Shown here one piece after another: positions 12,896 through 62,790 of a DNA stretch of 64,000 bases. The notes beneath the pieces were generated by a model, which did not search any database, was not told the DNA's origin, and saw nothing but the letters and a program-made list of their open reading frames with translations. The stretch's first letter is position 1, and each line of letters starts with the position of its first letter. The translations under genes and the position numbers were made by a program. The DNA comes from Cepaea nemoralis. Lineage: Eukaryota > Mollusca > Gastropoda > Stylommatophora > Helicidae. The stretch covers positions 1-64,000 of the forward strand of contig JACEFZ010011398.1 in the NCBI GenBank assembly GCA_014155875.1, given 5' to 3'.

Positions 12896-12899
12896 GTCT

Positions 12900-13700: not shown

Positions 13701-13704
13701 TAAC

Positions 13705-14610: not shown

Positions 14611-14629
14611 TTAGTCGACAGATCATCCT

Positions 14630-15275: not shown

Positions 15276-15309
15276 AACACCCTTATATGTCAAAGTACAC
15301 TTGTTCCTG

Positions 15310-15980: not shown

Positions 15981-16009
15981 GCGAATACCAGAACATCCAC
16001 GCCCACTAG

Positions 16010-16072
16010 ATATGTTTACATGCACACACTCTAGATATGTTTACATACATACACTCTAGATAGGTTCCAGAT
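16010..16072. repeat. 27-bp tandem repeat, about 2-3 copies
   Basis: Unit CTAGATATGTTTACATACAT plus ACACT, immediately 3' of the ceramidase stop codon. Confidence 0.8.
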
Positions 16073-16083
16073 GACTGCTTGTT

Positions 16084-16303
16084 TCACATCTGTACCACCT
16101 GATAGACAGTTTCTTTCTGGGAAGCACCAGTGACAGAGAACTCTCGACTCTGACCCACAAATGCTGTCAGTTTGCCAAATAAGGACTTCCATGTGCCAAA
16201 GTGGCGTATCCTGTAGACTCCAGACATCTGATTGGCTGGAATTTGCCATGTGATTTCAGCCTCACTTTCACCAAGGATGGTACTTGTCCTGATCCATTTA
16301 AAT
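16084..16303 (-). CDS. ASAH2: neutral ceramidase exon O (terminal)
   Basis: Completes the split Arg codon of exon N and reads FKWIRTSTILGESEAEITWQ, then IPANQMSGVYRIRHFG and a terminal extension of about 20 residues to TGA (16084-16086). The W-x-I-P...G-x-Y-R-I-R-H-F-G signature is the hallmark of the ceramidase C-terminal domain. The acceptor is TCTGCGGACATTCAG. It is separated from exon N by 13.2 kb. Confidence 0.95.
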
Positions 16304-19300
16304 CTGAATGTCCGCAGAGAAAACAGAGTCAGGCATACAGTTATCAGGTAACACTGTATTTACAACAATCAGCCAACACTGTCTTTACAACAATCAGCCA
16401 ACACTGTATTTACAACAATCAGCTAACACTGTATATACAGAAACTCAGAGAGATGCAAAAGAACCCTCTCTGATGCAGGAAAAGAGGAGAAGGGTGGAAA
16501 TCACCCCAACGATGGATAAGATATACACACAGAAAACCTCTCCGATGCTGGATAAGTGGAGACCATAGAAAACCTCACCAATGATGTATAAGAGGGACGT
16601 GCAAGAAACCTCTCCATTGCTGGAGAAGAGGAGACTATAGGAAACCTCACCAATGATGTATAAGAGGGACGTGCAAGAAACCTCTCCATTGCTGGAGAAG
16701 AGGAGACTATAGGAAACCTCACCAATGATGTATAAGAGGGACGTGCAAGAAACCTCTCCATTGCTGGAGAAGAGGAGACTATAGGAAACCTCACCAACGA
16801 TGGATAAGAGGGTGTGACGAAACGCCTACAGATCGGCAGATCTCTGCATAATATCCCTTTGAAGGGAGTGCGATGCGTTGGTCTCCCTTGAATTAATATC
16901 AATTAATAGGGGATTCCCATCAAAAAGTAGTGCGGGGCGGAGCTATTCTAGTTATTTATAGAAAAATCTAGAATGTTCCCTCAAGTGCGTACGTGGTAGA
17001 GATCTCTAAGTTCACGAGTGCTTCATGCAGCACGGGTTGGTGGAACTTATCGTGACTCTGGTTTTCTTCATGAATCATGAAAGTCACGCGGCCCGTGTAG
17101 GCGATTTGAAGGCGCACTGACTTAGTCGTGATCAGTCGCCCACCAGACCTCAGCGTAGACAGTTCACAGCCAACAGGCTGCGGTAATTTTGATGTCAATA
17201 TTCGCGGCCAGAGCGGACATCGGCAGTCAAGTTTGTGATTGTTCAATCACAGGTTAGTTGAATACTTATTATATTATTTAACTGTTGTCTATATGCCGGG
17301 CCGACCTCCCCGAACGAATTTATTGCCGTCGAAACTTGAGTCGTCGCGTAGCGTTACAAGTTACAGCGGGCTATCTGCATATTTAAGTAGGCTTTATCGA
17401 TCAGCGATGTAATGTGTTACCTGACGGAACAAGCCGTATTCCACAGGGAGTGGTGTGTAAATAAAATAGGCCGAACGATGTGCTTTACAGTGTGTAGCAG
17501 TTACTTGTTTGGTTTATTAATTACGCATGCAAGGCGATAGTTTGTCAGTCATTACATCAACATGCTAGACGCTGTAAATAATAAGGTAGAGCTTATTATT
17601 AGAGATGTGTAATGTGCTTCGTGACATTAGAATTATAACTTAATTGTTCTATCAGTGATGGTGATTTTTCGAGGAATCAAGGTGAGATCAGCCGTGGTGT
17701 ATTTACTGTGTGAAGATAGCCGTGTTATTCCGTGTAAGCCGGATGGTGTTACCTCGATAGGATAACAGTTGATAGAAAGTATTCATGATACTATTATTAC
17801 TGCTTGTTGTCATGTCCGTCCGCTAGCATGACCGTGCTTGTTCCATCATACGTTTGTCTAGGTAGCTGACTGGGAGGTAGGCCGGTACGCCCAACCTGTT
17901 AGGTTACAGGTCCGACCCAATGCAATCGTGCATATCCGATGAGTGAACATACCCGATCGAGGGTGATGCGGCACTCCGTAATTCGAGGCCGTGGTGTCTA
18001 GATAGATCGAGGTTTGAACCTAACCGTTTCTGTCTCTAATATTCTACTCTTCTGGAACCCTGACTCGGTTCATGGAGTACTTGGAGTACTGCCGTGAAGT
18101 AGTAGTATATGAGAGGAATAATCCCCCCCCCCCAAAAAAAAGGTGGAGTCAGAGTTTGGTAGTGGAGTCTGGAGGTTTGCTACATTGGATGACGTGACTT
18201 AAGTCGTCACGGGACAAGGTACACGGGACCCACAGTAGCTGTGGGAAAGTGTAATGGTGGATGGCCACCACAGCTGTGCTCGACCGGCACAGGTATGACT
18301 GACCTGAAAGATAGTCAGTGAATACAAGGGCAACTCAGGATCTGGGGCAGGGATCCCAGACCTGACACTATGGCTGTGATATGATTTTGTTATTTAAGTG
18401 TAACAAGTCATGAGTTCTCCTTGGTTAATGCTATAGTAATGAATTATCAGGAGTATAATTCATTATGGTCATATAGTTATTAATGTGTGTAATTGATCAG
18501 TCCATGGGTTAAGGGATTGATGAATTGATGAGTCTGTCAGGAAGGAGATGTCCGGCTGGACACCTTCTCGATACAGTAATCCCTACACTGAAAGGAAAGT
18601 AGGTGTATATGTTGATTGATGATGGAAGATGAAACCGGATTGGACTGGCACCAGGCGAAGGATGCTTGACAGAGTCATACAGTCGACTCTGGTGCTAGGG
18701 GTTATATTGTAGCCCAGAAGTGTTACTTGACTGAACAGGTGTGCTATTGCTTTTTCTACCATCATTATGCCTATATATTATAGTGACTAAGTAGATCTAT
18801 GATGTGATGATTTCATACTCATGTTGGTAGACATGAGGAATGTCTGAGAGGCAGGTGACATGGTGGAGATGCTGTTAGTCTTTGTTGTAGTTGAGTACTC
18901 ACACCAACCTCTCCGTGTTTCAGGATCTGTTATTACTATACAGAAGAAGATTCAAGAGCTTCACCATGAGCTCTATGGGCCCACTCATTCCAGTGCCTAT
19001 CCAGAAGTTGATTGAGGCCATACTGGGAGTGGTCGTCTGATTCTGCGAGTTCAATGTTGGAAGGAGCTGAGTGCTGAATAAGTCGGTAGGTCTAGGTTAG
19101 GACCTCCGTCAAGAGTCCGACGAGTGTCATCCGATCCTGAGAGGATCCAACACTGAAACGTCTGATGATTCTAGCCAGTGAAGCACTGGTGACATTCATA
19201 CCTCAGTGTAAACCTTGGTGATTGCAAGGTCAGGAACTTTCAAGTTGAGTAAAGTGATCAGTGTTACCGGTCACCATGACCTGTGTTATATGCTTCTGGC

Positions 19301-22300
19301 CCGGCTGGGTTATGGGACACCATGTATCAGTTGATGCTTAAATAGTGTTTCTACATTGGTTACCTTTATGAAGCCAACATGTGGTCCAGTGACCTAAGGA
19401 CATTGATTACAACATTGGTGGGAACACCAGAGTGACATGTTTGTTAAGGTAGGGAGCTACCTCAGTCCAATGTGATGAACTGTTGACAATGTTTGTGAAG
19501 GTAGGGAGCTACCTCATGCCATCGTGGTGAACTGTTGACAGTGTATGCTAGGTTGTGATTACTACCCATTGATCAGGGTAGTTATCATGATACTGTGTGA
19601 AGATCTATTGATCCAAGGACATGGAAATAAGGTGAAGTGTTTAGTCACCTGATAGACTTGGCCAGTGACATTGTGTGTTCATGTGGAGCAACCGCTCATT
19701 TTGTAGGTGACATATCAGTGTGTGGGTCACTTATGAGATAGAAGAGTGACCAGGCTCTTGTGTATTTTGAGACGGGGCTACATGTATTCTTTCTGCAAGT
19801 GGGAGACCGCTAATGTTCTAGGGTCGGCCCAGACTTCATCAGGAGTGTGACGAGTGAAATAGTACGACAGCAAGGAAGGATCCTTGTTCATCGGTGCAGT
19901 GTCAGTCAGGCAGTGGTACTGCGCTTGATCAGCCCTTGATTGGTTCTCTGTGTGAAGAGGGAACTTTGGAGAGGCAGCAGACCTTGGAGTTCCGGTCCAC
20001 TGGAGGAGCCTGGGTGAGTCGCTACCACGACTGGACAACCGCACGAGCTATCGTCCGTCTCCATGATGAAGAATCCTCATCTGCATATGTGCTCATGTAC
20101 ATAGTTCTTCTAGTCTGGCTTTCAGCCATCCTTCTCTGTGTTGTGGTTGACGTAGTTCAGAATTAAATTTTGTTCTCTTAGCTATGACTTTGTGCAGTGA
20201 TATGACTGGTGTCTGGTCCGAGCCCCCTTGGGGTTTGGAACCCTAGGTGAGGGAGGGGAGGTTAAGCTGTCCCGGCTTGTGTGGGGCCTGGTAGATGTAG
20301 AGTGCTATTGAGGTGGTTGGAGCAAAGGCAGGGGATAGTATCTATCGTGGCAAACCAGACCAAGCCCCGGCGGTCTTGTCACAAGATAGAGTGGGGGCCC
20401 GTCCGGGATCTTCTCTTTGTTCTGACATCTCGTAGGAATAGGTTATAGTGTCATCTGTCCTATACCTATTGTCTACTTGACGAGTAGGGCTACTGATACC
20501 TTTCTCTTCGACGTGGACAGACATTTAGTTAAGTTAGTATAGATACATAGTTACAGTGTTGGTTGGAGTACAGTTAGCATTGTGATTGGGTATTGCATAT
20601 CTATACTGATACTAAGTTACACTAAGCATGGCTACTCGTACTTTAGATTTAGCTAAGGTGCGGGCATCTGCAACTGAGATGGGATTGGAAGGTGAGGAGT
20701 TTAAAGCCTATGTACTGGAAGTAGAGAGAAACTTCAGAGCAGAAGAGAGTGAGCGAAGAAAGTCAGAAATTGAGCTTGAGGCTCGAAAGGTAGCACTTGA
20801 AGAGCAAAAGTTGGTGGCAGACCAACAGGCACAAAAACTTGCAGCTGACCTAGAGTCTAAGAAATTAGATGCTAGGAAGTTGGAAATGGAACATGAGTTC
20901 CGTATGAAGCAACTTGAGGTAGAGGCTAAAGCTGTTGGTGATTCTGAGGGAGCAGTAGGTGGAGTAGCTTTACCTAGCTCATCAGTAGCCAGCAGACCAG
21001 CTTACCATGCTATGAAATGGCCGTTTCCACCATTTGAACCGGACCAAGAGAAGATAGATCAATTCTTAGAGAAGTTCGAGGCAATGTGTAAAGCTATGGG
21101 TTTAGAGCCTGAGCGTTGGAATCTTAAGCTTTCACAAGGACTCCGTGGCACCGCGTACGAAGTGTATGCGCGTCTTCCCCCAGGGATGGAAAATGATTAT
21201 CCAACCCTGAAATCGGCTCTTTTGAAAAGATTCGAAATGACAGCCCATGCTTACAGGCGGAGGTTCAGAACTTCCAAGAGAGAACCAGGTGAGATGTTCT
21301 CGGCCTATAGTGTGAGACTGAACTCATACCTGTTGAAATGGATGGCGTTGGCCAATTTCAAAGAGGATTATGAGAGTCTGAGAGAGTTGATGGTGGTGGA
21401 TCAAATGAAAATGCAGATGTCCAAGCCTTTAAGGAATTTCTTAGGGGAAAATGGGGCTGGAAAGGCTAGACATAGTAAATAAGTTAGCTGAAAGGATATG
21501 TGGAAGTCTATGGTGAGACTGGGGATTCCAGTCAGACTGATTCACAGAAAAGGCAGAAGGGGCTTGATCAGAAGCCCAAGACCAAAGGTCCCAAAGAATC
21601 ATCCAATGTAGCAGATCCTGTGGTAAAAGACTCTGGTAAGAAACCCGATAAGCAAAGCCCTCCCGCCTCCCCAAAACGGAAGTGGAGTAAGAGGTGGTGT
21701 AAGTACTGTAAGTCTCCTTCCCATAATACTGTAGATTGTCTGAGGAAGCCAAAGGACTTGCACTTTGCGTGTCTCGCCTCTATTAGAGGTAGACCTAGCG
21801 AGACCACACCTAAGGGTCGGGAGAAACCTAAGTCTGAGAAATCACCTGTGATCGAAACGATAGAGGTGAATGGGAAGCAGGTGGAATGTCTATACGATAC
21901 AGGATTGCAGTTTGAAGCTGTAATCTCATCCCACCTTGTGAGCCCAGGGCAGCTCACCGGCGAGACAAGAGAATTTCAGCTGGCCATGAGGAGCTCCGTA
22001 GCTATGGACTTGCCGATTGCTCGGATTGACATTCGGTGCAGGTACGTTACGGGTAGCATCCAGGCGGCTGTGCTGCCTGATCCTATTTACCCTTTGATCC
22101 TCGGTCGTCCACATGTATTCCTGGGGGACCCCAGGGAACATTGTCTAGTGAGCGCTAGGCAGGCCAGGGCTAAGGATGGAGAAAGGCAGTGTGGTAAGGA
22201 AATAGACCATTCTCTTGCGAGGTTAGTGAGCAGTGCTCAAAGTAGGGACCAGACTTTGCGTCCTTACTTACTGGAGGTGTCCCAAAGTTCTGTCCCGCCA

Positions 22301-55300: not shown

Positions 55301-58300
55301 GTCTCTATCACAGGGAAGGAGAGAGTTAACAGAGATATACCTTGCCATTACAGGTGCTGGTGTCTCTATCACAGGGAAGGAGAGAGTTAACAGAGATATA
55401 CCTTGCCATTACAGGTGCTGGTGTCTCTATCACAGGGAAGGAGAGAGTTAACAGAGATATACCTTGCCATTACAGGTGCTGGTGTCTCTATCACAGGGAA
55501 GGAGAGAGTTAGTTAACAGAGATATACCTTGCCATTACAGGTGCTGGTGTCTCTATCACAGGGAAGGAGAGAGTTAACAGAGATATGCCTTGCCATTACA
55601 GGTGCTGGTGTCTCTATCACAGGGAAGGAGAGAGTTAAAGTTAACAGAGATATACCTTGCCATTACAGGTGCTGGTGTCTCTATCACAGGGAAGGAGAGA
55701 GTTAACAGAGATATACCTTGCCATTACAGGTGCTGGTGTCTCTATCACAGGGAAGGAGAGAGTTAAAGTTAACAGAGATATACCTTGCCATTACAGGTGC
55801 TGGTGTCTCTATCACAGGGAAGGAGAGAGTTAACAGAGATATACCTTGCCATTACAGGTGCTGGTGTCTCTATCACAGGGAAGGAGAGAGTTAACAGAGA
55901 TATACCTTGCCATTACAGGTGCTGGTGTCTCTATCACAGGGAAGGAGAGAGTTAACAGAGATATACCTTGCCATTACAGGTGCTGGTGTCTCTATCACAG
56001 GAAGGAGAGAGTTAACAGAGATATACCTTGCCATTACAGGTGCTGGTGTCTCTATCACAGGGAAGGAGAGAGTTAAAGTTAACAGAGATATACCTTGCCA
56101 TTACAGGTGCTGGTGTCTCTATCACAGGGAAGGAGAGAGTTAACAGAGATATACCTTGCCATTACAGGTGCTGGTGTCTCTATCACAGGGAAGGAGAGAG
56201 TTAACAGAGATATACCTTGCCATTACAGGTGCTGGTGTCTCTATCACAGGGAAGGCCTGTGTCCAGACAGCGGGGTCCCTTGGTGTTGGGCGACACATCT
56301 CCTAGGTTACCTTGAGCGAAGGCAGCAATAAAAGAACCCTGCAGACACAATATTTCTAGTTACAAACCTGGATTTGTAAAGGAATGATCGTCATCACATA
56401 AACAAACACACTGTTTTTCTCTCTCAATGGTATTTAATTCATGAAGTAGCCAGTTCTTGAATGCTTACATGAACAATATAAATAGATGACGCCAGCTGGC
56501 AAGGCACATGATGAGCATGTCCTGTGTAGAACCTGGCTGTGATCCTGGCCCATGTTAGTTAGTTAGTTAGTCGACAGATCATCCTCGTTGCACATCGAAC
56601 CATTCAGTCCATAAGTGCTCGGATCCCCTCCTCAGCAAATCCCGCAGCGTGTAGCGGCTAACGACACCAGTTCTGTGTTGGTTTATCAATCTTCTTTGGC
56701 TTCCTGCGTAGTGTTCTTGTTTGGCCACCCCTCTTTTAATTTGCTGCTCCCGCAGTCTGGCCATTGTTGTAGATTCACAGTTATCACTTGGTTCTCGCAA
56801 AAGTCTCACTTCTCGTAGAGCATTCAGAATGTCAGCCTGGTCCATGGCGCGTCCGCCCTCCACAGTAGCCTCACCTGCGAGCTTGTCAGCCCGCTCATTT
56901 CCTTGTACTCCCGCATGACCTGGCACGAAGATGAACTAATCTTGCCAGCCGAGACCGCTTCAGAGGTAGCAACCATTCTCTTCGGATCGACCCCTCCTCT
57001 ATCCTCTTGATCATGTTCATTGAGTCGCTAAGGAAACAAGCCCTAGTGAATGTCTGTGTCTCGAGCCATGTTATTGCTTTACTTACTGCCATGACTTCCA
57101 TGGTCAGGCTACTTGTGGTTTCAGTGAAAGCACCAGAGTCCTCCTTCACAATTCTCCCTCCGGCCCGAGCTGTAAAGGCCCATGAGCTTCTCACATGTCG
57201 GACGACCGACCCATCTGTGTAGATGACCGCGTCACAGTCTAGCGAATTCTCGAAAATCAACGCTTGTACTTCAGCCTCAACAGCAGCCGGATTTTCTTGT
57301 CTGCATTTTCTATCTAGTTGGATGCAAACTGAAAAGGATGTGCAGAACTCTGTTGGCACTTGCACCCACTCCTCGCCAGGTTCTAAGTCCTCAAGTGAAC
57401 ACACCTGTTGAAGAATGTCTTCGGCTTGACCCATCCACGACCGTCCTCTTTTTAACCTGCTGCCCTTCACCTTCCTAATTTCACTATGCAGTGGATGTTG
57501 TGTGTTTGCGTTAATTCTGAGGTAGGCGCGTGCCCTGCAAACTTGTATTCTCTCTTCAATGGTTGGAAAATCAAGAAGGTAGCGCATCGCACTGCATGCT
57601 GTATCTCCTGTACATCCAAGAATAATGCGCATAGCTTCATTCTGTATCCTTTCCATCCTTTCTATCTGCTTATGGCTGAGAGTCAGGATTGCCATTGCAT
57701 ACTCCAAAACAGACATGACCAGCCCCTCGTACAGTAGACATAGATGGCGCTGCTCACAGTTTGCTGCCGCCATCACCCGCATCGCTGCCAAACCCCGATT
57801 GGCCTTTGTTATCACCTGGTCTATGTGCACATTATAAGCAAGGCTTCGATCAAACCGTATCCCCAGGTATATGGCCCATGTGACAGACTCTAGCTCGGTC
57901 ACCAGTTCACCTGCCCCAGACATGTGGGTGCCCGCAGTGTCTCTCATGTCCTGTGTTGACCACCAGGCTGGTCCAGCAATCATTACAGCACACATGTGTG
58001 TGTGTGTGTGCGTGTGTGTGTGTGTGTTTGTGTGTGTGTATGCGTGCACACACAAACACGCACACACTTTTTCATATCTACTCACAAATTCAAGATGGCT
58101 GATGTCAGTGCAGAGGGTTTGATCCCCATCTGGCTTGGTACCTCTCCACAGTAGAGGTCAGTGGCTCGCTGAGAGCATCACACCAAACATGAATTCTGTA
58201 GCTCCAGTGAAGACACCCAGGAGTGTCCATACATACATGCGTATTGATGTATACATGCATCTATTCTCCATTTCGTTTTTCAAAACTTTTTTCTCATTCC

Positions 58301-61300
58301 ACATTTCCAGACTTAGAGAATAAAAGTGTAATCCAGTGACACAGTAACACTGCAACTCTAATTGTTGTGTTTCACTACATTACACTTCTGTTTTCTAGCT
58401 AAGTTTAGTTTGTCTGCATGTTTGTTTATTTGTGATATCTTTGTTGTTCAATGATATAGACTTTGGTGGAAACGCCTGACAACTTATCACAAATACCACG
58501 AGGCAGCCAACGTGCTTGGCCACATTCTGAGAAGACAAAACTGTAACTCGTCACATTTATATAAATAGAGACAGAAGAAGAGAGTGTGAGAATATTCTTG
58601 ACAGCCTTGTGTCATGGCACTTCAGGGTTTCAGCATGCAAATGTATACCTGCCGTTGGAGATCATCAGAAGTGGAGATCATGCCAGTAGACAAGGCACTC
58701 GGAGATGATGAAGATCTTAATTGGACTTTCTGTATGTCTCAGAGAAGGTTCTCATATTGGAGAAATGATGTGTGACCCCAACTTATGCACAGGAAATATG
58801 GAACTGTTGTGCAAACTGGTTCATGGGTGAAACAATGTGATCATCAGGGATTCCTTAATGTCTAATAGTAAACTGCCTTCCTTCTTCAGTGGCCATATGT
58901 AATATTAGACTGACTAGATCTTCTGAGTGGTTCCACTCTCTAATATTATTCAAAATCAGAAGCTATGAAACATGGTGAGAGATACTGGGGTTTCAGCACA
59001 TTTGACCCATTTAATGGAATCATTAATGTATAATGAACTTAAGTTTCAATACCTACCCAGTATCCAATTATATACTCATGTGTGCCCTGTCCATCCTTTA
59101 ATAAACGTTCCTTGCTTATCCCTCAAACTTTATGTTATTATTATGATTCACATAACATAAATTTACATTGCTATGAAAACAGCTCACACATTTATTGAAT
59201 TGTGTGTTCCATCGGCAGGTGCCTTGGCAGGGCCAGATCAAATGATTCTGTGGGCCTTATACGGCCACGGACCTGACATTCCCCGCCCCTGGCTTAGATG
59301 AATGTGGTTTGGCAAGTGTACATGAGCAAGCAACACAAATGTAGCAGACACATGATACATGAGCAAGCAACACAAATGTAGCAGACACATGATACATGAG
59401 CAAGCAACACAAATGTAGCAGGACACATGATACATGAGCAAGCAACACAAATGTAGCAGACACATGATACATGAGCAAGCAACACAAATGTAGCAGACAC
59501 ATGATACATGAGCAAGCAACACAAATGTAGCAGACACATGATACATGAGCAAGCAACACAAATGTAGCAGACACATGATACATGAGCAAGCAACACAAAT
59601 GTAGCAGACACATGATACATGAGCAAGCAACACAAATGTAGCAGACACATGATACATGAGCAAGCAACACAAATGTAGCAGACACATGATACATGAGCAA
59701 GCAACACAAATGTAGCAGACACATGATATGAGCAAGCAACACAAATGTAGCAGACACATGATACATGAGCAAGCAACACAAATGTAGCAGACACATGATA
59801 CATGAGCAAGCAACACAAATGTAGCAGACACATGATACATGAGCAAGCAACACAAATGTAGCAGACACATGATACATGAGCAAGCAACACAAATGTAGCA
59901 GACACATGATACACCTACACAGACTTCAGGTACAAGCCCTGACAGGCAAACTGTTCACTCATGCCAGAAATAGATCACTGACAACGCTATGCCACAGAAA
60001 CATAACTACCAGTCTACCTGACCAGGGATGACATCTCCATTGATGTGTCGCTCAAACAGCTGCGAGGCGTAACCCTTGTTGTCTGAGCTCAGCATCTGGT
60101 TGGTGTTGTTCATGCTGGTACAGTGGACAGCAAACCAGCTGTAGGTGGACACACATACAAGGATGTCTTCATTCATGGAGACACATACATAACACAGACA
60201 ACTCTTTATAAGACTCGCAGTCTTTAGGTGTCTTGTCTCAACCTCTATCATGTCTCTGCAATACTCTCTCAAGATATTTCACCCACTGTCTATGATGTTT
60301 CTCCAATACTCTCTCAAGATATTTCACCCACTGTCTATGATGTTTCTCCAATACTCTCTCAAGATATTTCACCCACTGTCTATGATGTTTCTCCAATACT
60401 CTCTCAAGATATTTCACCCACTGTCTATGATGTTTCTCCGATATTTTCTCAAGATATTTCACCCACTGTCTATGATGTTTCTCCGATATTTTCTCAAGAT
60501 ATTTCACCCACTGTCTATGATGTTTCTCCGATACTCTCTCAAGATATTTCACCCACTGTCTATGATGTTTCTCCAATACTCTTTCTACACAAGATAGATA
60601 TTTCACACATTGACTATGAAATCCAGGTTTGAATCCTTGGTAATCTGATGGAAATTGTTTCTGCCAGGGATAAAAAGAATACTCTAACAGTTACACATTG
60701 TCCCTCCCTTCTGAGAGCATGCTCTCACCCACACTCAGCATCTGTATTTATGCTGCCTCACCTGTGACTGTGTCTTCCACTGGCAGTCGCTGCAAGATGG
60801 TCTTCACATCATCCACTTTGATCGCAGCCATTCCACATTCATACTTGAGGTAATAGACATTTTGTTGAGCAATGACCTGCCCCCTGACTCTAGGTGAGAA
60901 TCTCCAGCCAGTTTTGCCTCCTTGGTGCCCAGAACCATCAGTGTAAGCTATTGCATCATCTCTGATGGCATGGTCATCTATCAATTCCATCAACCCATTA
61001 CACCATTCTCTACTCGATGTCCAATGTGACGATGACTTGAGGCAAGCTCTTCTTGTGCTGGCTGCAGTCATTACACCATTCTCTACTCTATGTCCAATGT
61101 GACGATGACTTGAGGCAGGCTCTTCTTGTGCTGGCTGCAGTCATTACACCATTCTCTACTCTATGTCCAATGTGACGATGACTTGAGGCAGGCTCTTCTT
61201 GTGCTGGCTGCAGTCAATCCATTCCTGTCCCCTGTGTATCTGCTTGTCTGCGATAACCTGCCTGCTGTATCTGCTGCCTGCACCACCACTGGCCTTCCTC

Positions 61301-62045
61301 TCTTTATTTGAATTTCTTTGAGATCAATCAGGTGACCATTTAATGGCTGTCTGTCATTGCCAGGAATAAGGAGGCCCTCTAGGATTCCCCTGTCTCAGAC
61401 TTGGTTGCTCTGTCAGGATCATCATTTCTATGGATCGGTTATTTACAACCTGGAATGGCTGCTCTGTCAGGCTCATCATTTCTATGAACTGGTTATTTAC
61501 AACCAGGCATTAAAGACCAATTTTGTTAATAAGACGGACCTGTGAACTACTTGTTCATATCACGTTTTTGTTTTGTAATATTAATTATCCATTTTATTAC
61601 CATCTTTAAGGACACATCTTAGCAATAGGCCGTAAATAAATGTGGTTTTCTTGTAGAAAGACAAACCTCATATCACATAATAAGGAGGCTGTAACAGTCT
61701 CTGTTATGTAACATCCAGGTTCAGTTATTGCTTTAAATTAGTTTATTTGCGTGCGCAAATTGTTAATTTTAGCTAATAAAAACAAATCAGGATGCTTCTA
61801 GGTTGAGCACCAAACATGTGGGCGGGGAGGGGTAACAAAGGTGGATAGACCCTCACTGTAACAGCCTACCTGAGTGAACACCAAACATGGGGGGGGGGGG
61901 GTGTAACAGACACTGACTGTAACAGCCTATATTAGTTATGTTTGGTGTTGTATGACCATGACCTTACCTGATCATCCCCATGTCAACTCCTTTTTCATCC
62001 ACAATCTTCAGCACTGTCATGTTCTTGTCCACATCATACTTGTAC
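16084..62045 (-). CDS. ASAH2: neutral ceramidase, C-terminal 15 coding exons (A to O); span of joined exons
   Basis: Neutral ceramidase hydrolyses the amide bond of ceramide to sphingosine and fatty acid, at the cell surface or as a secreted enzyme. Fifteen exons with GT-AG borders and compatible phases give 513 codons plus a stop, collinear with the C-terminal two thirds of the family. The GDVSPN hexapeptide (exon C), reported from memory to hold the nucleophilic Ser, is intact. So are SWFAVH (B), PGEF (H) and YITTFQEY (J), which in my recollection include zinc ligands. Exons L to O form the C-terminal beta-sandwich domain, ending with VYRIRHFG. The signal anchor and the N-terminal catalytic His lie beyond the window. 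No disabling change is seen. The gene is stretched to 46 kb by tandem arrays and by a 13.2-kb last intron carrying an LTR element. It converges with DPF. Confidence 0.95.
16340..16450. repeat. minisatellite, 25-bp unit, 4 copies
   Basis: Unit CAACACTGTATTTACAACAA plus TCAGC, starting about 40 bp upstream of the exon O acceptor. Confidence 0.93.
16480..16812. repeat. minisatellite, 72-bp unit, left block (interrupted by LTR element)
   Basis: Unit includes GATGTATAAGAGGGACGTGC, AAGAAACCTCTCCATTGCTG and GAGAAGAGGAGACTATAGG; about 4-5 copies. The same array resumes at 26913. Confidence 0.95.
16813..20383 (+). repeat. 5' LTR, 3571 bp
   Basis: Starts TGTGACGAAACGCC and ends GGTCTTGTCACA. Nearly identical to 23488-26912 apart from scattered substitutions and one replaced segment near 19826-20030. 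A 92-codon antisense frame (17246-16968) is kept in both LTRs; it matches no family I know. Confidence 0.95.
20392..20409 (+). other. primer-binding site, tRNA-Pro type
   Basis: TGGGGGCCCGTCCGGGAT, 8 bp after the 5' LTR. It is complementary, with one mismatch by my memory, to the 3' end of tRNA-Pro. Confidence 0.75.
20628..21482 (+). CDS. LTR retrotransposon Gag protein, truncated by frameshift
   Basis: 284 codons. Residues of about 30-105 are a charged, heptad-like helical region rich in Glu, Lys and Leu. From about residue 128 (KWPFPPFEPDQEKIDQFLEK) to 275 is the capsid-type retrotransposon Gag domain, with RGTAYEVYARLP and FRTSKREPGEMFSAY. The stop at 21480 looks secondary: sense in the next frame (LDIVNKLAERI) continues over it and then passes by another shift into the frame starting at about 21500. 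Gag and pol were therefore probably one frame originally. The start is the first ATG after the leader. Confidence 0.85.
   Translation: MATRTLDLAKVRASATEMGLEGEEFKAYVLEVERNFRAEESERRKSEIELEARKVALEEQKLVADQQAQKLAADLESKKLDARKLEMEHEFRMKQLEVEAKAVGDSEGAVGGVALPSSSVASRPAYHAMKWPFPPFEPDQEKIDQFLEKFEAMCKAMGLEPERWNLKLSQGLRGTAYEVYARLPPGMENDYPTLKSALLKRFEMTAHAYRRRFRTSKREPGEMFSAYSVRLNSYLLKWMALANFKEDYESLRELMVVDQMKMQMSKPLRNFLGENGAGKARHSK
21500..22888 (+). CDS. shortened Pol: zinc knuckle, protease, integrase zinc domain and integrase C-terminal domain, no RT
   Basis: A 462-codon open frame. In order: a zinc knuckle CKYCKSPSHNTVDC (residues 67-80, C-x2-C-x4-H-x4-C); a pepsin-like protease region with ECLYDTGLQFEA at 129-140 and PLILGRP at 198-204; an integrase H2C2 zinc site (H308, H315, C345, C348); then DRVLALLPIEG...WQGPFPVERI (368-393), typical of the integrase C-terminal GPY/F module. 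Reverse transcriptase, RNase H and the integrase catalytic core should lie between these parts but are absent, with the frame kept open. The listed start is a GTG just after a stop at 21485, so the true start lies upstream in Gag. Confidence 0.85.
   Translation: MEVYGETGDSSQTDSQKRQKGLDQKPKTKGPKESSNVADPVVKDSGKKPDKQSPPASPKRKWSKRWCKYCKSPSHNTVDCLRKPKDLHFACLASIRGRPSETTPKGREKPKSEKSPVIETIEVNGKQVECLYDTGLQFEAVISSHLVSPGQLTGETREFQLAMRSSVAMDLPIARIDIRCRYVTGSIQAAVLPDPIYPLILGRPHVFLGDPREHCLVSARQARAKDGERQCGKEIDHSLARLVSSAQSRDQTLRPYLLEVSQSSVPPTSGQFYVENRLLYRRAGQGDSQYGQMVVPTDYRSRLIHRVHTLSLTGHKDVGTTVQCLSSHYHWPGMTGDVRRYIRSCPKCCLAAPKHRTRNGLSLQIGDRVLALLPIEGAEFELGWQGPFPVERIMSRSTYDVKVRGELRKFHCTLLQNFERSEVVSPQDSATTIALDSVLGSRRGRGRLSPTQYILWGGSAVS
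22889..23473 (+). other. LTR element 3' internal region
   Basis: Non-repetitive. An Arg-rich frame at 22936-23301 (121 codons) has no recognisable domain and is probably decayed 3' pol or untranslated sequence. Confidence 0.4.
23474..23487 (+). other. polypurine tract-like sequence
   Basis: TTAAGTGGGGGCCTA directly precedes the 3' LTR, the position expected for plus-strand priming. Confidence 0.6.
23488..26912 (+). repeat. 3' LTR, 3425 bp
   Basis: Starts TGTGACGAAATGGC and ends GGTCTTGTCACA. Relative to the 5' LTR, about 200 bp near 19826-20030 is replaced by a short stretch with local duplications of GATGAAGAATCCTCATCTGC. Confidence 0.95.
26913..27030. repeat. 72-bp minisatellite, right block
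   Basis: Continues the array at 16480-16812 after the LTR element: GAGGGATGTGCAGGAAATTC, then GGATAAGAGGAGATGATAGG. Confidence 0.9.
27031..28267. other. unassigned intron sequence with simple repeats
   Basis: No coding similarity recognised. A roughly 14-bp TGATGATGTCTGCA repeat lies at 28030-28075, a (GA)n tract near 28197-28215 and a (TA)n tract near 28253-28268. Confidence 0.5.
28268..28800 (+). mobile_element. internally deleted copy of the 33-37 kb non-LTR family
   Basis: Two pieces of the polypeptide encoded at 33117-35738 occur: LSELKQARKDVQKAARQCAN near 28310-28370 and, after a large deletion, RVLIRELLFADDAVITTHSE near 28458-28515. It then changes into the dispersed repeat also seen at 12090. 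Orientation is opposite to the 33-37 kb element. Confidence 0.88.
28801..29500. other. unassigned intron sequence
   Basis: No exon, element or array recognised between the retrotransposon fragment and exon N. Confidence 0.5.
29501..29586 (-). CDS. ASAH2: neutral ceramidase exon N
   Basis: Reads TNGTYLTVEHQDGGGDWQVK then YTDAHWET plus two nucleotides of an Arg codon. The T-x-L-T-V-E...W-x-x-x-x-x-D-A-x-W-E-T-R pattern is characteristic. Acceptor CATTTCAG, donor GTCAGC. No array lies next to this exon. Confidence 0.94.
30015..30178. repeat. minisatellite, 21-bp unit, about 7 copies, at exon M donor
   Basis: Unit CACCTGTAAACACACCTGTG plus T. On the gene strand it begins within about 10 nt after the exon M donor (GTAGGTGTTGACAC). 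Confidence 0.93.
30180..30233 (-). CDS. ASAH2: neutral ceramidase exon M
   Basis: 54 bp, 18 codons: GSLVTVRFVSANPRNDLK, the conserved V-x-F-x-(S/G)-A-N-P-(R/K)-N segment of the C-terminal domain. Acceptor TCCAAACAG, donor GTAGGT; phase 0 on both sides. Confidence 0.95.
30255..30720. repeat. minisatellite, 78-bp unit, about 5 copies
   Basis: Unit includes GTTATCATTCAGTAGTACAG, TCAATGACATACATACACAT and GAGGCAGAGACTGAGACAAG; shorter derivatives lie at the right end. Begins about 25 bp upstream of the exon M acceptor. Confidence 0.94.
30721..31377. other. unassigned intron sequence
   Basis: Nothing recognised apart from a duplicated ATGCTACAAGTTCA motif (about 30793 and 30841). Confidence 0.4.
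31378..31970. repeat. minisatellite, 58-bp unit, about 10 copies
   Basis: Unit TGTCTACAGTCATCAGTGTC, AGTCATATACCCAGTCAACA, TGTTCTAGCACAAGGATG. Ends about 30 bp from the exon L donor. Confidence 0.96.
31999..32142 (-). CDS. ASAH2: neutral ceramidase exon L
   Basis: 144 bp, 48 codons. Includes GPSPPNFLDVQLSFMPGVVF and GKHFGSVLVDASPSY, the P-P-x-x-(L/F)-x-x-x-Q-x-x-x-x-P-x-V-V-x-D...F-G-x-V-L segment that opens the C-terminal domain. Acceptor TTTGACAG, donor GTAATG. Confidence 0.95.
32143..32340. repeat. short tandem duplication, about 65 bp, 2-3 copies
   Basis: CAATACTTA(A/C) ... GCATATTTCATCTTCT ... CCCAACTGGAAGCTTC repeats imperfectly at 32170-32330, upstream of exon L. Confidence 0.7.
32340..33036 (-). 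mobile_element. older non-LTR retrotransposon, C-terminal piece
   Basis: On the - strand near 32880-32690: RGENVYHVTPKHSE, then PKPRIDLYKTSLAYSTAHLW and NNLPQEIKGT, the usual end of CR1/Jockey-like polyproteins lacking RNase H. The matching RT part lies at 38095-38560, beyond the inserted full-length element. Confidence 0.75.
33117..35738 (-). CDS. retrotransposon endonuclease C-terminus, reverse transcriptase and zinc finger
   Basis: 873 codons open. The first 80 or so residues finish the endonuclease (LDFIITRR, then CDTDHSLVV with the catalytic S/T-D-H type motif). The RT domain follows: NKGDRSDCNNYRGISLL, FIDLTKAFDLVSREGL, GVKQGCVLAPTLF and RELLFADDAAVTTHSE hold motifs 1, A, B and C. Beyond it are WIGHLRRMDDGRIPKD and a terminal finger CTHCERTFTAQIGLISHTRY ending near H-S. 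The listed start is internal; the frame joins the upstream one by a single-base shift near 35730. Confidence 0.92.
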   Translation of the reverse strand: MENGQRLLEHCTSNDLCITNSFFKTKEMHKVTWKHPRSGHWHQLDFIITRRQHLNHISLTRSYHSADCDTDHSLVVARVRLRPKRIYTAKHKYSPRINIINTHDPEKCFQFQQQLEDAFTDTPENCTVNEKWGQIKETLYKTAVGVYGTVDHKRQDWFAANSETLQPLIDKKKKALLRNKERPTRNTLSELRQARKDVQKAARQCANDYWIKLCESIQIASDKGDIRSMYEGIKKACGPVIKRSAPLKTLTGEVITDKKQQMDRWVEHYLELYSSETKLADDALNAIEALPTLDHLDTLPTITEVKCAINELASGKAPGKDGIPIEVIRSGQDTLTLQIHQLIELCWREGQVPQDFKDSNIITLYKNKGDRSDCNNYRGISLLCIVGKVFARIVLRRLQVLGDQVYPESQCGFRQNRSTTDMIFSLRQMQEKCREQNQPLFIAFIDLTKAFDLVSREGLFKALKKIGCPPTLLSIVESFHTGMKGIIKFDGATSEEFEIKSGVKQGCVLAPTLFGIYFSLLLKYAFRDQDGGIYIHSRSDGGLYNAQRLKAKTKIRRVLIRELLFADDAAVTTHSEEELQCLLSAFSNACSEFGLTISKKKTQIMSQGAHGVPSIFIDDAELEIVDHFTYLGSVVNSKLSLDQEINIRIGKAATTMNRLRKRVWENRKLTAKTKVLVYQACVLSTLLYGSETWTTYSHQENNLNSFHMRCLRRILGIKWQDKITNTEVLERSGCVTVYSMLSLRRLRWIGHLRRMDDGRIPKDIFFGELQMGKRSQGRPLLRYKDVCKRDMIDTGIDNAHWEQVAAERVAWRANIRNGIKSKEKIIAEKSHTKRLRRKMVHDGGNDHVFTCTHCERTFTAQIGLISHTRYRHS
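35698..36290 (-). CDS. retrotransposon AP-like endonuclease, N-terminal part (frameshifted)
   Basis: 170 open codons from 36210 include DIAGLQETRLA and MLGDFNARVG, the catalytic Glu and D-x-N motifs of exonuclease/endonuclease/phosphatase enzymes. The true N-terminus (ATWNVRTM, 36242-36265) lies upstream in another frame, separated by a stop and a shift near 36209. At the other end the frame runs out near 35730, where one extra G appears to have broken it. Confidence 0.88.
37040..38090. other. unassigned intron sequence between element pieces
   Basis: No similarity recognised; possibly further inserted repeats, since the older element's coding sequence is not visible here. A (GA)n tract lies near 37755. 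Confidence 0.4.
38095..38560 (-). mobile_element. older non-LTR retrotransposon, RT C-terminal region
   Basis: On the - strand from 38520: KALGLIIDRNLTFNSHVHAL, then NARKIFYTSHIQTDIDYCST and IWDGCS, the post-catalytic segment of CR1/Jockey-like reverse transcriptases. Continues, after the interruption, into 32340-33036. Confidence 0.75.
38561..39492. other. unassigned intron sequence
   Basis: One roughly 65-bp duplication (GGACAGCTAAGAATATCAAC at 38839 and 38903). No element or exon seen. Confidence 0.5.
39493..39588 (-). CDS. ASAH2: neutral ceramidase exon K
   Basis: 96 bp, 32 codons: IQRYEGASTIYGPHTLEAYL then ESYKQLASHLAQ. Q-R-Y-E-(A/G)-A-S-T-(I/L)-Y-G-P-H-T-L is a strongly conserved ceramidase block. 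Acceptor CTATTATAG, donor GTAACA. Confidence 0.96.
39690..40030. repeat. minisatellite, about 38-bp unit, 7-8 imperfect copies
   Basis: Unit like GATCTCTGTGATGGTTCTAC plus ATCAGTGTGACAGTTTT; lengths vary. About 100 bp upstream of the exon K acceptor. Confidence 0.88.
40210..40315. repeat. short irregular repeat of CACAGTATCACA
   Basis: Four to five spaced copies of CACAGTATCACA(T/G) with variable separators. Confidence 0.7.
40345..40760. repeat. minisatellite, 52-bp unit, about 8 copies
   Basis: Unit CCTGACCTAGCAACTGCAAG, ATTATTTCACCCATCAGAGA, ACCTGTTATAAT. Very homogeneous. Ends about 27 bp from the exon J donor. Confidence 0.97.
40787..40885 (-). CDS. ASAH2: neutral ceramidase exon J
   Basis: 99 bp, 33 codons: TLVEAGWPTNTTTVIAGLAN then EYSDYITTFQEYQ. 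The Tyr of the Y-I-T-T block is, from memory, a zinc ligand in the family. Acceptor CACCAG, donor GTACAA. Minisatellites lie on both sides within 30-60 bp. Confidence 0.96.
40935..41770. repeat. minisatellite, 43-bp unit with a 34-bp variant, about 20 copies
   Basis: Unit GCAATCACTGAGTGTCTCAC, AGAAAACAATCACAACATCA, ATA; the short class lacks 9 bp after AGAAAACA. Long and short units are interspersed. Confidence 0.96.
41870..42225 (-). mobile_element. possible SINE-like sequence with internal duplication
   Basis: An 80-bp block (TTGGGTACATACAGGGATGG, then GTCATGTGTTTGGATCCCC) is duplicated at 41887 and 41967. On the - strand, GCTGTAGTGGTGCAGCGACT near 42205 resembles a tRNA A-box region. Confidence 0.35.
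42236..43455. repeat. minisatellite, 22-bp unit, about 55 copies
   Basis: Unit AGTACAAGTGTAGTCAGAGA plus AT, with position-specific variants (TAGTTAGAGTAT, TAATCAGAGAAT) that cluster in runs. Confidence 0.97.
43485..43680. repeat. 43-bp repeat spanning the exon I donor, 4 copies
   Basis: Unit (gene strand) ends AGTCTACTCT|GTAAGTCTGC, i.e. the last 9-10 nt of exon I plus the start of the intron. The rightmost copy is the real donor at 43653/43654; three further donor copies follow in the intron. Confidence 0.93.
43654..43693 (-). CDS. ASAH2: neutral ceramidase exon I (40-bp exon)
   Basis: Completes the Ser codon of exon H: S-TMAGRRMRNTVYS, matching the T-M-(A/S)-G-R-R-(L/M)-R block after P-G-E-F. 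Acceptor GTTTCAG, donor GTAAGT. Very short, and its donor is copied by the adjoining array. Confidence 0.93.
43694..44224. other. unassigned intron sequence
   Basis: Nothing recognised upstream of exon I until the retrotransposon fragment at 44225. Confidence 0.4.
44225..44725 (-). mobile_element. non-LTR retrotransposon 3' fragment
   Basis: Starts with TTATGTGCCATGCCGGTAAG, matching 3427 and 51425. The - strand retains decayed RT C-terminus. An ATAAAGTTTGTTCGTTCG insertion near 44485 resembles another element's tail. A C-rich tract follows at 44840-44870. Confidence 0.7.
45020..45350 (-). mobile_element. non-LTR retrotransposon 3' fragment with RNase H C-terminus (family B)
   Basis: The frame 45321-45022 ends LRWLLRMETERLWECPECCD and a stop, followed by a (TTGA)n-type tail at 45005-45022. 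The 5'-truncated end lies only about 20-25 bp from the exon H donor. Confidence 0.87.
45372..45466 (-). CDS. ASAH2: neutral ceramidase exon H
   Basis: 95 bp: ISIPYLWQPQIVDHQLLRVG then QLVIIAVPGEF plus two nucleotides of Ser. The P-G-E-F Glu is, from memory, a zinc ligand. Acceptor GGTTCACAG, donor GTGAGA. A retrotransposon fragment begins about 20-25 bp past the donor. Confidence 0.96.
45495..45885. repeat. minisatellite, 20-bp unit, about 20 copies
   Basis: Unit AACTTGCACCCACAACATGA with many substitutions; starts about 30 bp upstream of the exon H acceptor. Confidence 0.93.
45886..46624. other. unassigned intron sequence
   Basis: No element seen. A short repeat of CCACCCAAAT(G/C)ATCA lies near 46525-46620. 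Confidence 0.4.
46625..46910. repeat. 42-bp repeat spanning the exon G donor, about 6-7 copies
   Basis: The gene-strand unit is about 23 nt of exon end (AATTTTAATGGACACAGGGG + AA) joined to GTAAGTTACTCATTGTTGGT. 42 is a multiple of three and the frame stays open, so each copy encodes a 14-residue VSYSLLVILMDTG-type repeat in frame with exon G. Confidence 0.95.
46888..47000 (-). CDS. ASAH2: neutral ceramidase exon G
   Basis: 113 bp: completes Gly, then SNSSSPVWNFVRDLIKAPTA and KQVECHKPKPILLDTGE. E-C-H-x-P-K-P-I-L-L-x-T-G-E is a conserved ceramidase block. Acceptor ACAACCTCAG, donor GTAAGT. The donor recurs every 42 bp in the following array, so the 3' border could vary. Confidence 0.96.
47253..47334 (-). 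CDS. ASAH2: neutral ceramidase exon F
   Basis: 82 bp: VQLCKPAMGYSFAAGTTDGP then GAFDFKQ plus one nucleotide of Gly. C-K-P-A-(M/L)-G-Y-S-F-A-A-G-T-x-D-G is diagnostic. Acceptor CACCCCCAG, donor GTCAGG. The acceptor and first exonic bases are reiterated in the upstream array. Confidence 0.96.
47325..49985. repeat. minisatellite, 39/31-bp units, about 70 copies, spanning the exon F acceptor
   Basis: The long gene-strand unit contains CCCACCCCCAG|GTACAGTGAT, i.e. the exon F acceptor plus about 10 exon-like bases. The short unit lacks 8 nt (CACTGTAC on the + strand), exactly the part corresponding to exon. Single-base variants (ACTAGG, ACCAGG, GGAGG) form shared runs, suggesting block duplications. 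Confidence 0.97.
49986..50250. repeat. small duplications beyond the main array
   Basis: ACTGGGG(T/A)GGAATAATGTAT-like units at 50025-50100 and a 50-bp block (CATAAACATGAGATCTCCCT) twice at 50150-50250. Confidence 0.75.
50441..50545 (-). CDS. ASAH2: neutral ceramidase exon E
   Basis: 105 bp, 35 codons: NLYESATFKLSGAVDFRHSY then VDMPQQNVTLADGSK. Corresponds to the segment between the oxyanion-side helix and C-K-P-A. Acceptor CATCCCCAG, donor GTCAGT. One of the few exons without an adjacent array. Confidence 0.94.
50546..51105. other. unassigned intron sequence with simple repeats
   Basis: (CA)n near 50908-50928 and C-rich tracts near 50850 and 50940-50960; nothing else recognised. Confidence 0.5.
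51110..51320. repeat. minisatellite, 61-bp unit trimmed to 50-62 bp, 4 copies
   Basis: Unit GTGAGACTGTGCCAGGTCAG, AGTGTTTGACATGCAGGCCT, TAGATCATGA. Confidence 0.9.
51420..51660 (-). mobile_element. non-LTR retrotransposon 3' fragment
   Basis: Begins CCATCATGTGCCACGCCGGT and parallels 3427-3640 and 44235-44450. The - strand keeps the VWACYEKKWIGELG-like remnant of the RT C-terminus. Confidence 0.75.
51670..51975. repeat. two adjoining minisatellites (27-bp and 24-bp units)
   Basis: 51670-51790: GGACATAAGTAGATGGTACA plus AACACAT, about 4 copies. 51840-51975: CATCATGAAACTGTGACTTA plus CAAA, about 5 copies. Confidence 0.92.
52035..53940. repeat. minisatellite, 23-bp unit, about 80 copies, abutting the exon D donor
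   Basis: Unit GTGATGTACACATACAACAA plus ACA. The right end starts within about 10-15 nt of the exon D donor. The left end (52060-52140) holds two or three units carrying CAATGAGAACCAC, a close copy of the donor-flanking sequence. Single-base indels are common near 52700-52930. The three long - strand frames are artefacts. Confidence 0.97.
53947..54033 (-). CDS. ASAH2: neutral ceramidase exon D
   Basis: 87 bp, 29 codons: NELCVAFGPGNDMFESTQII then GSNQFQKAL. C-x-A-x-G-P-G-x-D-M-F-(D/E)-S-T-Q-I-I-G is conserved. Acceptor GCTCTAG, donor GTGGGT. Confidence 0.95.
54034..54640. other. unassigned intron sequence
   Basis: No element, exon or array recognised upstream of exon D. Confidence 0.4.
54645..54810. 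repeat. minisatellite, about 32-bp unit, 5 copies
   Basis: Unit CTATGGGAAATGTCATAGTA plus ATATTGATGA(A/T). Confidence 0.9.
55055..56255. repeat. 61-bp repeat spanning the exon C donor, about 19 copies
   Basis: The gene-strand unit is the last 40 nt of exon C (CCTTCCCTGTGATAGAGACA, CCAGCACCTGTAATGGCAAG) joined to GTATATCTCTGTTAACTCTC + T. Every unit therefore carries a complete exon end and donor. Several non-adjacent units have an extra AGTTAA-type 4-6 bp insertion. Confidence 0.97.
56216..56338 (-). CDS. ASAH2: neutral ceramidase exon C (catalytic serine exon)
   Basis: 123 bp, 41 codons: GSFIAAFAQGNLGDVSPNTK then GPRCLDTGLPCDRDTSTCNG-K. The N-L-G-D-V-S-P-N motif holds the serine reported, from memory, as the nucleophile. 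Acceptor GTGTCTGCAG, donor GTATAT. Reading past the donor meets a stop within a few codons (GTA TAT CTC TGT TAA). Confidence 0.97.
56560..58000 (-). mobile_element. non-LTR retrotransposon fragment: RT tail and RNase H (family C)
   Basis: Frame 58085-56895 carries the RT C-terminal region (SVTWAIYLGIRFDRSLAYNV, then IERMERIQNEAMRIILGCTG) and RNase H motifs AVIYTDGSVVRHVRSSWAFT, LTMEVMAVSKAITW and LSDSMNMIKR. A frameshift near 56935 moves the last part (PGHAGVQGNERADKLAGEAT and the C-terminus at 56579) to another frame. The same family is at 14630-15275. Confidence 0.88.
57985..58065. repeat. (GT)n/(CA)n simple repeat
   Basis: Interrupted (TG)n from about 57990 to 58040, then ACACACAAACACGCACACAC. 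Confidence 0.95.
58085..58225 (+). mobile_element. SINE-like fragment
   Basis: GGGTTTGATCCCC near 58119 resembles a B box, and GAATTCTGTAGCTCCAGTGA near 58190 recurs at 10828 (opposite half of the split SINE). Confidence 0.4.
58360..59310. other. unassigned intron sequence
   Basis: No similarity, array or exon recognised. Confidence 0.4.
59315..59912. repeat. minisatellite, 37-bp unit, 16 copies
   Basis: Unit ATACATGAGCAAGCAACACA plus AATGTAGCAGACACATG. Almost perfectly homogeneous, with one 1-bp insertion (59420) and one 3-bp deletion (59729), suggesting recent expansion. Open frames of about 210 codons on the - strand are artefacts. Confidence 0.97.
60018..60138 (-). CDS. ASAH2: neutral ceramidase exon B
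   Basis: 121 bp: completes Ser, then WFAVHCTSMNNTNQMLSSDN and KGYASQLFERHINGDVIPGQ. W-F-A-(I/V)-H...S-M-N-N-(S/T)-N...S-D-N-x-G-Y-A-S is highly conserved; the His is, from memory, a zinc ligand. Acceptor CCACCTACAG, donor GTAGAC. Confidence 0.96.
60250..60600. repeat. minisatellite, 45-bp unit, 8 copies
   Basis: Unit CTCCAATACTCTCTCAAGAT, ATTTCACCCACTGTCTATGA, TGTTT. About 115 bp upstream of the exon B acceptor. 45 is a multiple of three, so both strands read open. Confidence 0.96.
60748..61075 (-). mobile_element. RNase H fragment of a non-LTR retrotransposon (family D)
   Basis: The frame reads IAYTDGSGHQGGKTGWRFSP then RVRGQVIAQQN and ECGMAAIKV, with the first two acidic RNase H motifs. 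It stops being recognisable near 60790. Confidence 0.75.
61004..61220. repeat. 73-bp tandem triplication at the edge of the RNase H fragment
   Basis: CTCTACTC(T/G)ATGTCCAATG, TGACGATGACTTGAGGCA(G/A)G, CTCTTCTTGTGCTGGCTGCA, GTCATTACACCATT repeats three times. The first copy is coding sequence of the fragment. Confidence 0.93.
61375..61515. repeat. 54-bp tandem duplication
   Basis: CTGTCAGGATCATCATTTCT followed by ATGGATCGGTTATTTACAAC occurs twice with few changes. Confidence 0.85.
61516..61967. other. unassigned intron sequence
   Basis: An AT-rich stretch, then two copies of a short block around GCACCAAACATG(T/-)GGGCGGG / GAACACCAAACATGGGGGGG near 61808 and 61877. Confidence 0.5.
61968..62045 (-). 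CDS. ASAH2: neutral ceramidase exon A (most 5' exon in window)
   Basis: 78 bp: one nucleotide completes a codon (probably Arg), then YKYDVDKNMTVLKIVDEKGV and DMGMI plus two nucleotides of Ser. D-x-x-M-x-V-L-K-(I/M)-V-D is conserved. Acceptor GTGTACATAG, donor GTAAGG. The acceptor lies inside a tandem array, so upstream array copies offer equivalent acceptors. Confidence 0.94.
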
Positions 62046-62790
62046 CTATGTACACATAAACAAGACATATGTTATCATGTTCTTGTCCACATCATACTTG
62101 TACCTATGTACACATACACAAGACATATGTTACCATGTTCTTGTCCACATCATACTTGTACCTATGTACACACACAAGACATATGTTATCATGTTCTTGT
62201 CAACATCATACTTGTACCTATGTACACACACAAGGACATATGTTACCATGTTCTTGTCCACATCATACTTGTACCTATGTACACACACAAGACATATGTT
62301 ATCATGTTCTTGTCCACATCATACTTGTACCTATGTACACACACACAAGACATATGTTATCATGTTCTTGTCCACATCATACTTGTACCTATGTACACAT
62401 AAACACATATGTTATCATGTTCTTGTCCACATCATACTTGTACCTATGTACACATAAATACATATGATATCATGTTCTTGTCCACATCATACTTGTATCT
62501 ATGTACACACACACAAGACATATGTTATCATGTTCTTGTCCACATCATACTTGTACCTATGTACACATAAATACATATGATATCATGTTCTTGTCCACAT
62601 CATACTTGTATCTATGTACACACACACAAGACATATGTTACCATGTTCTTGTCCACATCATACTTGTACCTATGTACACATACAATACATATGATATCAT
62701 GTTCTTGTCCACATCATACTTGTACGATGTACACATAGAAGACATACATTATCATGTTCTTGTCCACATCATACTTGTACCTATGTGCAC
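62018..62790. repeat. about 57-bp repeat spanning the exon A acceptor, about 14 copies
   Basis: The gene-strand unit contains ATGTGTACATAG|GTACAAGT and continues through 29 nt of exon A (to GACAAGAACATGA) before joining intron sequence TAACATATGTCTTGTGTG. Unit length varies by a few bases. Confidence 0.97.

Follow-up and report, generated by a model that had tools for sequence, protein, structure and literature searches.

The neutral ceramidase gene of the land snail Cepaea nemoralis raises the question of why several of its splice sites lie inside minisatellites, and whether array birth is coupled to splice junctions or arrays have arisen across them by chance. The stretch of DNA analyzed, here called the window, comprises 64,000 nucleotides of a single contig. 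The gene lies on the minus strand and has 19 exons in total, 15 of which (A to O) are within the window, where they run from 62045 to a stop codon at 16084 with GT...AG at every border. Joined together, the 15 exons formed a single open frame of 513 amino acids with the Pfam domains PF04734 and PF17048, and the snail protein matched human neutral ceramidase (4wgk, E = 4.4e-151). Four additional exons were located upstream, at 69684-84197 of the same contig, which extended the model to 19 exons and 36 splice borders with an open frame from ATG to stop. A 63-bp array (contig C10549, 84262-84809) stops 65 bp upstream of the start codon and presumably falls in the promoter or 5' leader.

The exon model was compared with orthologs at the protein level, and these proteins run across the junctions in the window without an indel. 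The 513-residue part aligned at 78% with Arion vulgaris entry P0002, which we take to be derived from a transcriptome, with no indel across all 14 window junctions, and at 83% with Candidula unifasciata P0001, with no indel from exon B onward (13 junctions). Candidula and Arion were the most similar among the matches listed, followed by Lymnaea and Biomphalaria at 70%, and the Branchiostoma entries among the 120 matches listed reached only 55-60%. The initial annotation had assumed a deuterostome setting, which was incorrect: the host is a stylommatophoran land snail, and the best-scoring proteins among the matches listed come from Candidula, Arion, Lymnaea and Biomphalaria. Lymnaea protein P0003 has 10 additional residues precisely at the B-C junction, perhaps because of a misannotated donor or a lineage-specific change.

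Transposable elements were also found in the window. A retroelement at 16813-26912 interrupts the intron between exons N and O; its two long direct repeats of ~3.0-3.6 kb, 98.9% identical over 3.0 kb, enclose a short interior that encodes an integrase zinc-binding domain. Three LINE-type pieces lie on the minus strand, at 33120-36216 (reverse transcriptase and endonuclease domains), at 56582-58157 (RNase H domain) and at 5863-9387, where RNase H- and RT-like frames were recognized by eye only.

Six exons, all on the minus strand like the arrays beside them, have a splice site at or within an array. The acceptor of exon A (61968-62045), ACATAG|GTACAAG, is within an array at 62017-62806 of ~14 copies, in which the 58-bp unit takes in 29 nt of exon A. 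The donor of exon C (56216-56338), AAG|GTATAT, is within an array at 55062-56255 (~19 copies of a 61-bp unit that includes 39 nt of exon C). The donor of exon D (53947-54033), TTG|GTGGGT, adjoins a degenerate array at 52063-53930, the bulk of which is ~78 copies of a 23-bp unit that lacks the donor. The acceptor of exon F (47253-47334), CCCCCAG|GTACAGT, is at the end of an array at 47323-49981 with a 39-bp unit and 31-bp variants (~71 copies by TRF, ~12 nt of exon F). The donors of exon G (46888-47000), GAA|GTAAGT, and of the 40-nt exon I (43654-43693), TCT|GTAAGT, are within arrays at 46649-46909 (42-bp unit, 6.3 copies, up to ~22 nt of exon) and 43503-43663 (43-bp unit, 3.7 copies, 10 nt of exon), respectively.

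The remaining exons in the window, also on the minus strand, have arrays at various distances. Exon B (60018-60138) has one on each side, 105-106 bp off; exon H (45372-45466) has one at 45496-45879 that ends 30 bp from the acceptor; and exon K (39493-39588) has one 111 bp upstream. Non-spanning arrays flank exon J (40787-40885) at 40938-41766, 53 bp upstream, and at 40400-40758, 29 bp downstream, and flank exon L (31999-32142) 20 bp upstream and 44 bp downstream. At exon M (30180-30233) the array at 30024-30171 is likewise non-spanning, with a unit match that begins at intron position +8. The last exon, O (16084-16303), which includes the stop codon, has an array 40 bp upstream of its acceptor. 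The closest array to exon E (50441-50545) is 192 bp away, and exon N (29501-29586) is array-free within 430 bp. An array lies within 120 bp of 17 of the 29 window borders and, by hand count, of 13 of the 15 window exons, which agrees with the initial annotation that arrays lie close to most other exons. Among the upstream exons, none of the seven junctions is within an array, and one of the seven has an array within 120 bp.

The arrays were read copy by copy. The repeat unit clearly held the exon-intron border at 5 of the 36 borders, namely the A and F acceptors and the C, G and I donors, and in degenerate form at D; the exon part of the spanning units was ~10-39 nt over A, C, F, G and I. The initial annotation had claimed five splice sites inside arrays that include the junction and part of the exon, and it had described the D donor as adjoining an array with degenerate donor copies at its far end; both observations were confirmed. 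At D, three 33-bp far-end units (52063-52163) carry a donor-like GTGG[TC]TCTC, reading GTGGTTCTC in two units and GTGGCTCTC in one, where the authentic donor reads GTGGGTTCTC. The F array is bounded by TRF at 47404, yet more copies continue up to the junction; its units bring along the pyrimidine tract of the acceptor, and many of the F copies are shortened variants without the exon part. The splice dinucleotide is not universal, as some C units have GC and one A unit lacks AG. All six arrays extend outward from the exon border into the intron only, and a second copy of an array unit was absent from every exon of the ceramidase model.

These arrays are "mirage" minisatellites, a class known from amphioxus and found here in a mollusc. 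The initial annotation had pointed to this class, described at amphioxus Adh, and the literature bears this out: mirages are reported or cited for Adh3, the globins BflGb6 and BflGb9, retinol dehydrogenase, presenilin, troponin C and PGBD5 (PMC3087553, PMC3902484). As described in those papers, amphioxus mirages share with the snail arrays units that lie across the exon-intron border on both the 5' and 3' sides, splice dinucleotides that survive in many of the copies, lengths that vary between haplotypes, and cluster edges spared from homogenization (PMC3087553, PMC3902484). The snail arrays differ in their gastropod host, in occupying six sites of a single gene and in reaching up to ~71 copies; BflGb6 has 3 and 6 units of 150-160 bp, and Adh3 has units of 10-72 bp (PMC3087553, PMC3902484). 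RNA data and somatic instability have been reported for amphioxus mirages, the latter for Adh (PMC3087553, PMC3902484). Among intronic minisatellites of other invertebrate genes, those of earthworm metallothionein are likewise large, but they lie inside intron 1 and are not described as holding splice junctions (PMC12783039). The potato RdRp gene likewise carries a tandem duplication, which its authors tie to intron gain; one duplication there is said to have created an intron, whereas the snail arrays are at intron edges (PMC4974935). The snail intron before F, the one intron tested, is dissimilar to the unit at its other end. Literature searches of an open-access library, in which most subscription journals are missing, listed no report of mirage minisatellites outside amphioxus.

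A search for hidden mirages was performed in which each of the 29 window borders was aligned to all array units of 12-100 bp and compared with 40 shuffles. The borders that scored clearly above the highest of the 40 shuffles were those at A, C, D, F, G and I, together with M, where the match begins at intron +8. The B acceptor, H donor and K donor exceeded the shuffle maximum by just 1-2 points, in matches to arrays elsewhere in the window. The D donor was the weakest of the six sites, with a scored alignment that starts 3 nt into the intron. The D array looks like a former mirage, the middle of which would have been replaced by a deletion variant.

The chance expectation for junction-spanning arrays was determined with a null model in which each array represents a duplication of its own unit length, and placements that fell wholly inside an exon or covered an entire exon were rejected. 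With strict TRF settings and present coordinates (46 kb), 0.94 spanning arrays were expected (P≥5 = 0.0013). Collapsing each array to one unit raised the expectation to 1.28 (P≥5 = 0.0071), and removal of recognized transposons alone raised it to 1.46 (P≥5 = 0.012). When both corrections were applied, 2.61 were expected (P≥5 = 0.11, P≥6 = 0.04), and similar values were obtained with relaxed TRF (2.85; P≥5 = 0.15, P≥6 = 0.06), with a wider transposon list (2.76; P≥5 = 0.13, P≥6 = 0.05) and with the entire 19-exon gene (2.51; P≥5 = 0.10, P≥6 = 0.04). The corrected nulls are fairer because the arrays and transposons themselves inflate the present length of the gene. The four doubly corrected settings thus predict 2.5-2.9 mirages against the 5-6 observed (P≥5 0.10-0.15, P≥6 0.04-0.06), and all of these tests concern a gene that was chosen for its striking appearance. 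The claim of the initial annotation that chance would rarely produce this pattern is only partly supported, as the outcome depends on the null. Arrays covered 28% of the flank (1-16083) and 30% of the gene, which is not denser than its flank.

A genome sample was assembled from 78 exon hits in three families and scanned by TRF, with the flanks of the loci as a control. It comprised adaptin loci for 30 of 36 matches, CCT loci for 30 of 70 (28 used, as two loci were incomplete) and myosin loci for 20 of 69; the hit edges approximate exon borders, some copies are intronless, and duplicate loci are present (L064 and L066 look like one), so that not all counts are independent. Array coverage of the sample flanks was 7.7-8.7%. 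Inspection of the 15 loci in which an array lies 120 bp or less from the hit revealed one duplicated 3' splice site. This duplication (L063 1417-1501, contig C3879, a CCT gene) consists of two copies of a 43-bp unit that contains the entire 3' splice site, tract and AG, with no exon bases, and may be a mirage at birth before a chaperonin exon. At another CCT locus (L058, contig C25822), a chaperonin exon hit has arrays on both sides, starting 5 and 11 bp from its ends; the one on the acceptor side stops a few nucleotides short of the acceptor and may include a degenerate acceptor. The mirage rate was 5 or 6 of 36 borders in the ceramidase gene versus 1 of 156 hit edges in the sample (Fisher P = 0.0009 or 0.0002), and the low rate in the sample is in line with its much lower array density. 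The further suggestion of a coupling between array birth and splice junctions is unsupported at present, given equal array density in gene and flank, a spanning count near the corrected expectation and a single case among the 78 sampled exon hits.

A second contig (C19945; 16.4 kb) was found to contain exons D to H, which differ from those of the window at 3 of 482 nt (99.4% identity), and its main aligned blocks were ~87-98% identical to the window. The C. nemoralis draft has unremoved haplotigs and a heterozygosity of ~1.42% (PMC8022989), and C19945 is therefore likely an allele of the window, with a recent paralogue as the alternative. This comparison covers three of the arrays, at D, F and G; the A, C and I arrays are represented by the window contig only. 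Each of the three occupies the same junction on both contigs but differs in copy number: 70.6 copies at F in the window versus 17.9 in C19945, 77.9 versus 48.9 at D, and 6.3 versus 4.3 at G. The H-side array has 19.2 copies on both. In the far-end D units of C19945, either GTGG or GTAG precedes TTCTC or CTCTC. The intron between D and E differs greatly in length, as its 24-bp array has ~212 copies in C19945 (L011 6291-10000 and L012 1-1371) versus 4.5 in the window. The intron between G and H in C19945 carries a 47-bp array of 12 copies (L012 4790-5358), for which TRF finds no counterpart at the corresponding place in the window, and which is possibly a recent birth.

Decoy splice sites within the arrays were scored with a small matrix based on the remaining splice sites of the ceramidase gene. 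The C array contained 14 additional donors with the same 9-nt sequence as the real donor, and the G and I arrays contained 3 identical decoys each. Decoy acceptors within 1 bit of the authentic site numbered 61 in the F array and 9 in the A array. At C, the first 61-nt extension already contains an in-frame stop that use of any decoy would bring into the message. At G, 2 of the 6 scored decoys would insert in-frame residues free of stops. Splicing would therefore have to favor the exon-adjacent copy. These short exons (40-220 nt) are likely chosen through exon definition, which would favor the exon-adjacent site; at donors, the order of transcription would add to continued use of the exon-proximal copy. 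Two apparent features of mirage donors were set aside. Their weak scores came from a matrix trained on the other donors, which biased the comparison. The absence of an exon-side AG from 3 of 4 mirage donors versus 0 of 10 other window donors was dropped after the upstream exons were added, as n1 and n4 also lack it and the contrast weakens to about 0.04 (hand calculation).

The account that we favor, with a probability of roughly 0.6, is random array birth in an array-rich region combined with tolerance of duplications that span a junction. Tandem duplications of ~20-80 bp would be born at many positions in a minisatellite-dense region, and birth would be independent of the junction. When such a duplication falls across a splice junction, the exon would remain intact and the additional copies would become intron; it would be tolerated because a working splice site would persist in the exon-adjacent copy. 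The tolerated duplication would subsequently grow or contract like any minisatellite. What we observed were arrays that span junctions and extend only into the intron, equal array density in gene and flank, and copy numbers that change between contigs with nearly unchanged exons. Against this account, six spanning arrays slightly exceed the expectation even in the fairest nulls (P 0.04-0.06), non-spanning arrays are significantly near exons, and mirages are much more frequent in the ceramidase gene than in the sample.

The observation that arrays crowd near exons bears on a different reading, in which exon borders are genuine hotspots of minisatellite birth in this snail: open chromatin, R-loops or the splice-signal sequence would promote duplication within ~120 bp, and junction mirages would be the extreme of a gradient of exon proximity. 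Among the 32 ceramidase arrays kept, 26 were non-spanning; 16 of the 26 begin no more than 120 bp from an exon, where 6.8 were expected (P = 0.0003). This skew remained when distances were capped at 300 bp (P = 0.011-0.012) but was not significant at 200 bp (P = 0.08-0.10). Exon-near sequence (within 120 bp) held 22 arrays in 3.37 kb versus 15 in ~7 kb of intergenic flank (P = 0.0007; P = 0.02 for the 16 non-spanning arrays only), the ~7 kb being a rough estimate of 9.5 kb minus further transposon-like frames. In the adaptin, CCT and myosin sample, array starts fell from 1.09 per kb in the nearest 120 bp (20 arrays over 18.43 kb) to 0.59 at 120-300 bp and to 0.30 at 300-1500 bp (38 arrays over 125.5 kb, from the adaptin and CCT loci alone), a 3.6-fold difference between near and far (P = 2e-5), although matches that duplicate one locus make these counts partly dependent. 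Dispersed repeats dilute the deep flanks, however: their share of the bases rose from 13% in the first 60 bp to 41% at 600-1500 bp, a lower bound obtained with a small comparison database, and the C. nemoralis genome has a repeat content of 77% (PMC8022989). Corrected with the measured lower bound, the excess was 3.2-fold (P = 0.0006), and a deep repeat fraction of 77% would leave 1.26-fold (P = 0.30), in two tests that rest on 17 and 19 arrays. The gradient may thus reflect only the avoidance of exon edges by transposons, and we regard hotspots at exon borders as the leading rival explanation, if a tentative and rather doubtful one.

Three other explanations are considerably less probable. 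Selection for self-correcting splicing, in which acceptor mirages would persist at GT-starting exons because a misused decoy acceptor recreates a donor (AG|GTACA) for a second, recursive splice to the true acceptor, is suggested by the acceptors themselves: only 2 of the 15 in the window have GT after the AG, and both of them, A and F, are the ones with a mirage (1 in 105). On a small matrix derived from the gene and including the real upstream donor, that donor scored 9.8 and the one regenerated at F scored 7.5. Upstream exon n3, however, also begins with GT and has no mirage (two of three GT-starting exons among 18 acceptors, P = 0.02), 30 of the 61 good F decoys have no following GT and are thus beyond such rescue, and this post hoc idea is inapplicable to the donor mirages; we consider it highly unlikely. 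The same AG|GT at the A and F acceptors would be expected if the arrays marked recent intron gain through tandem duplication of an exon segment bearing AGGT, a route proposed from mirages by the amphioxus authors (PMC3087553). The donor of the intron before F, the only intron tested, was nevertheless no closer to the F unit than shuffled background (best array matches of 20 and 19, both to other arrays, against shuffled maxima with a mean of 18.4 and a highest value of 27), which leaves intron gain even less credible. Least probable is an assembly artefact of noisy long reads. The assembly was built from ~23x long reads, and its copy numbers may be wrong (PMC8022989), but two separate contigs with exon copies that are 99.4% identical agree on the junctions of the D, F and G arrays, and the array units differ by shared variants.

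Six mirages in one molluscan gene, three of them on both haplotype-like contigs, indicate that the phenomenon is not restricted to cephalochordates. The locus also provides a natural experiment, as exon F is preceded by ~18 or ~71 copies of its own acceptor region in the allele-like copies, and the choice made by the spliceosome among many near-identical sites becomes directly testable. Should the apparent crowding of arrays around exons persist after complete masking of repeats, it would suggest an exon-linked mutational process. If exon borders are indeed hotspots, genes would hold a standing and fast-changing stock of duplicated splice sites, and mirages would represent a recurrent mutational process in at least two animal phyla rather than a cephalochordate curiosity.
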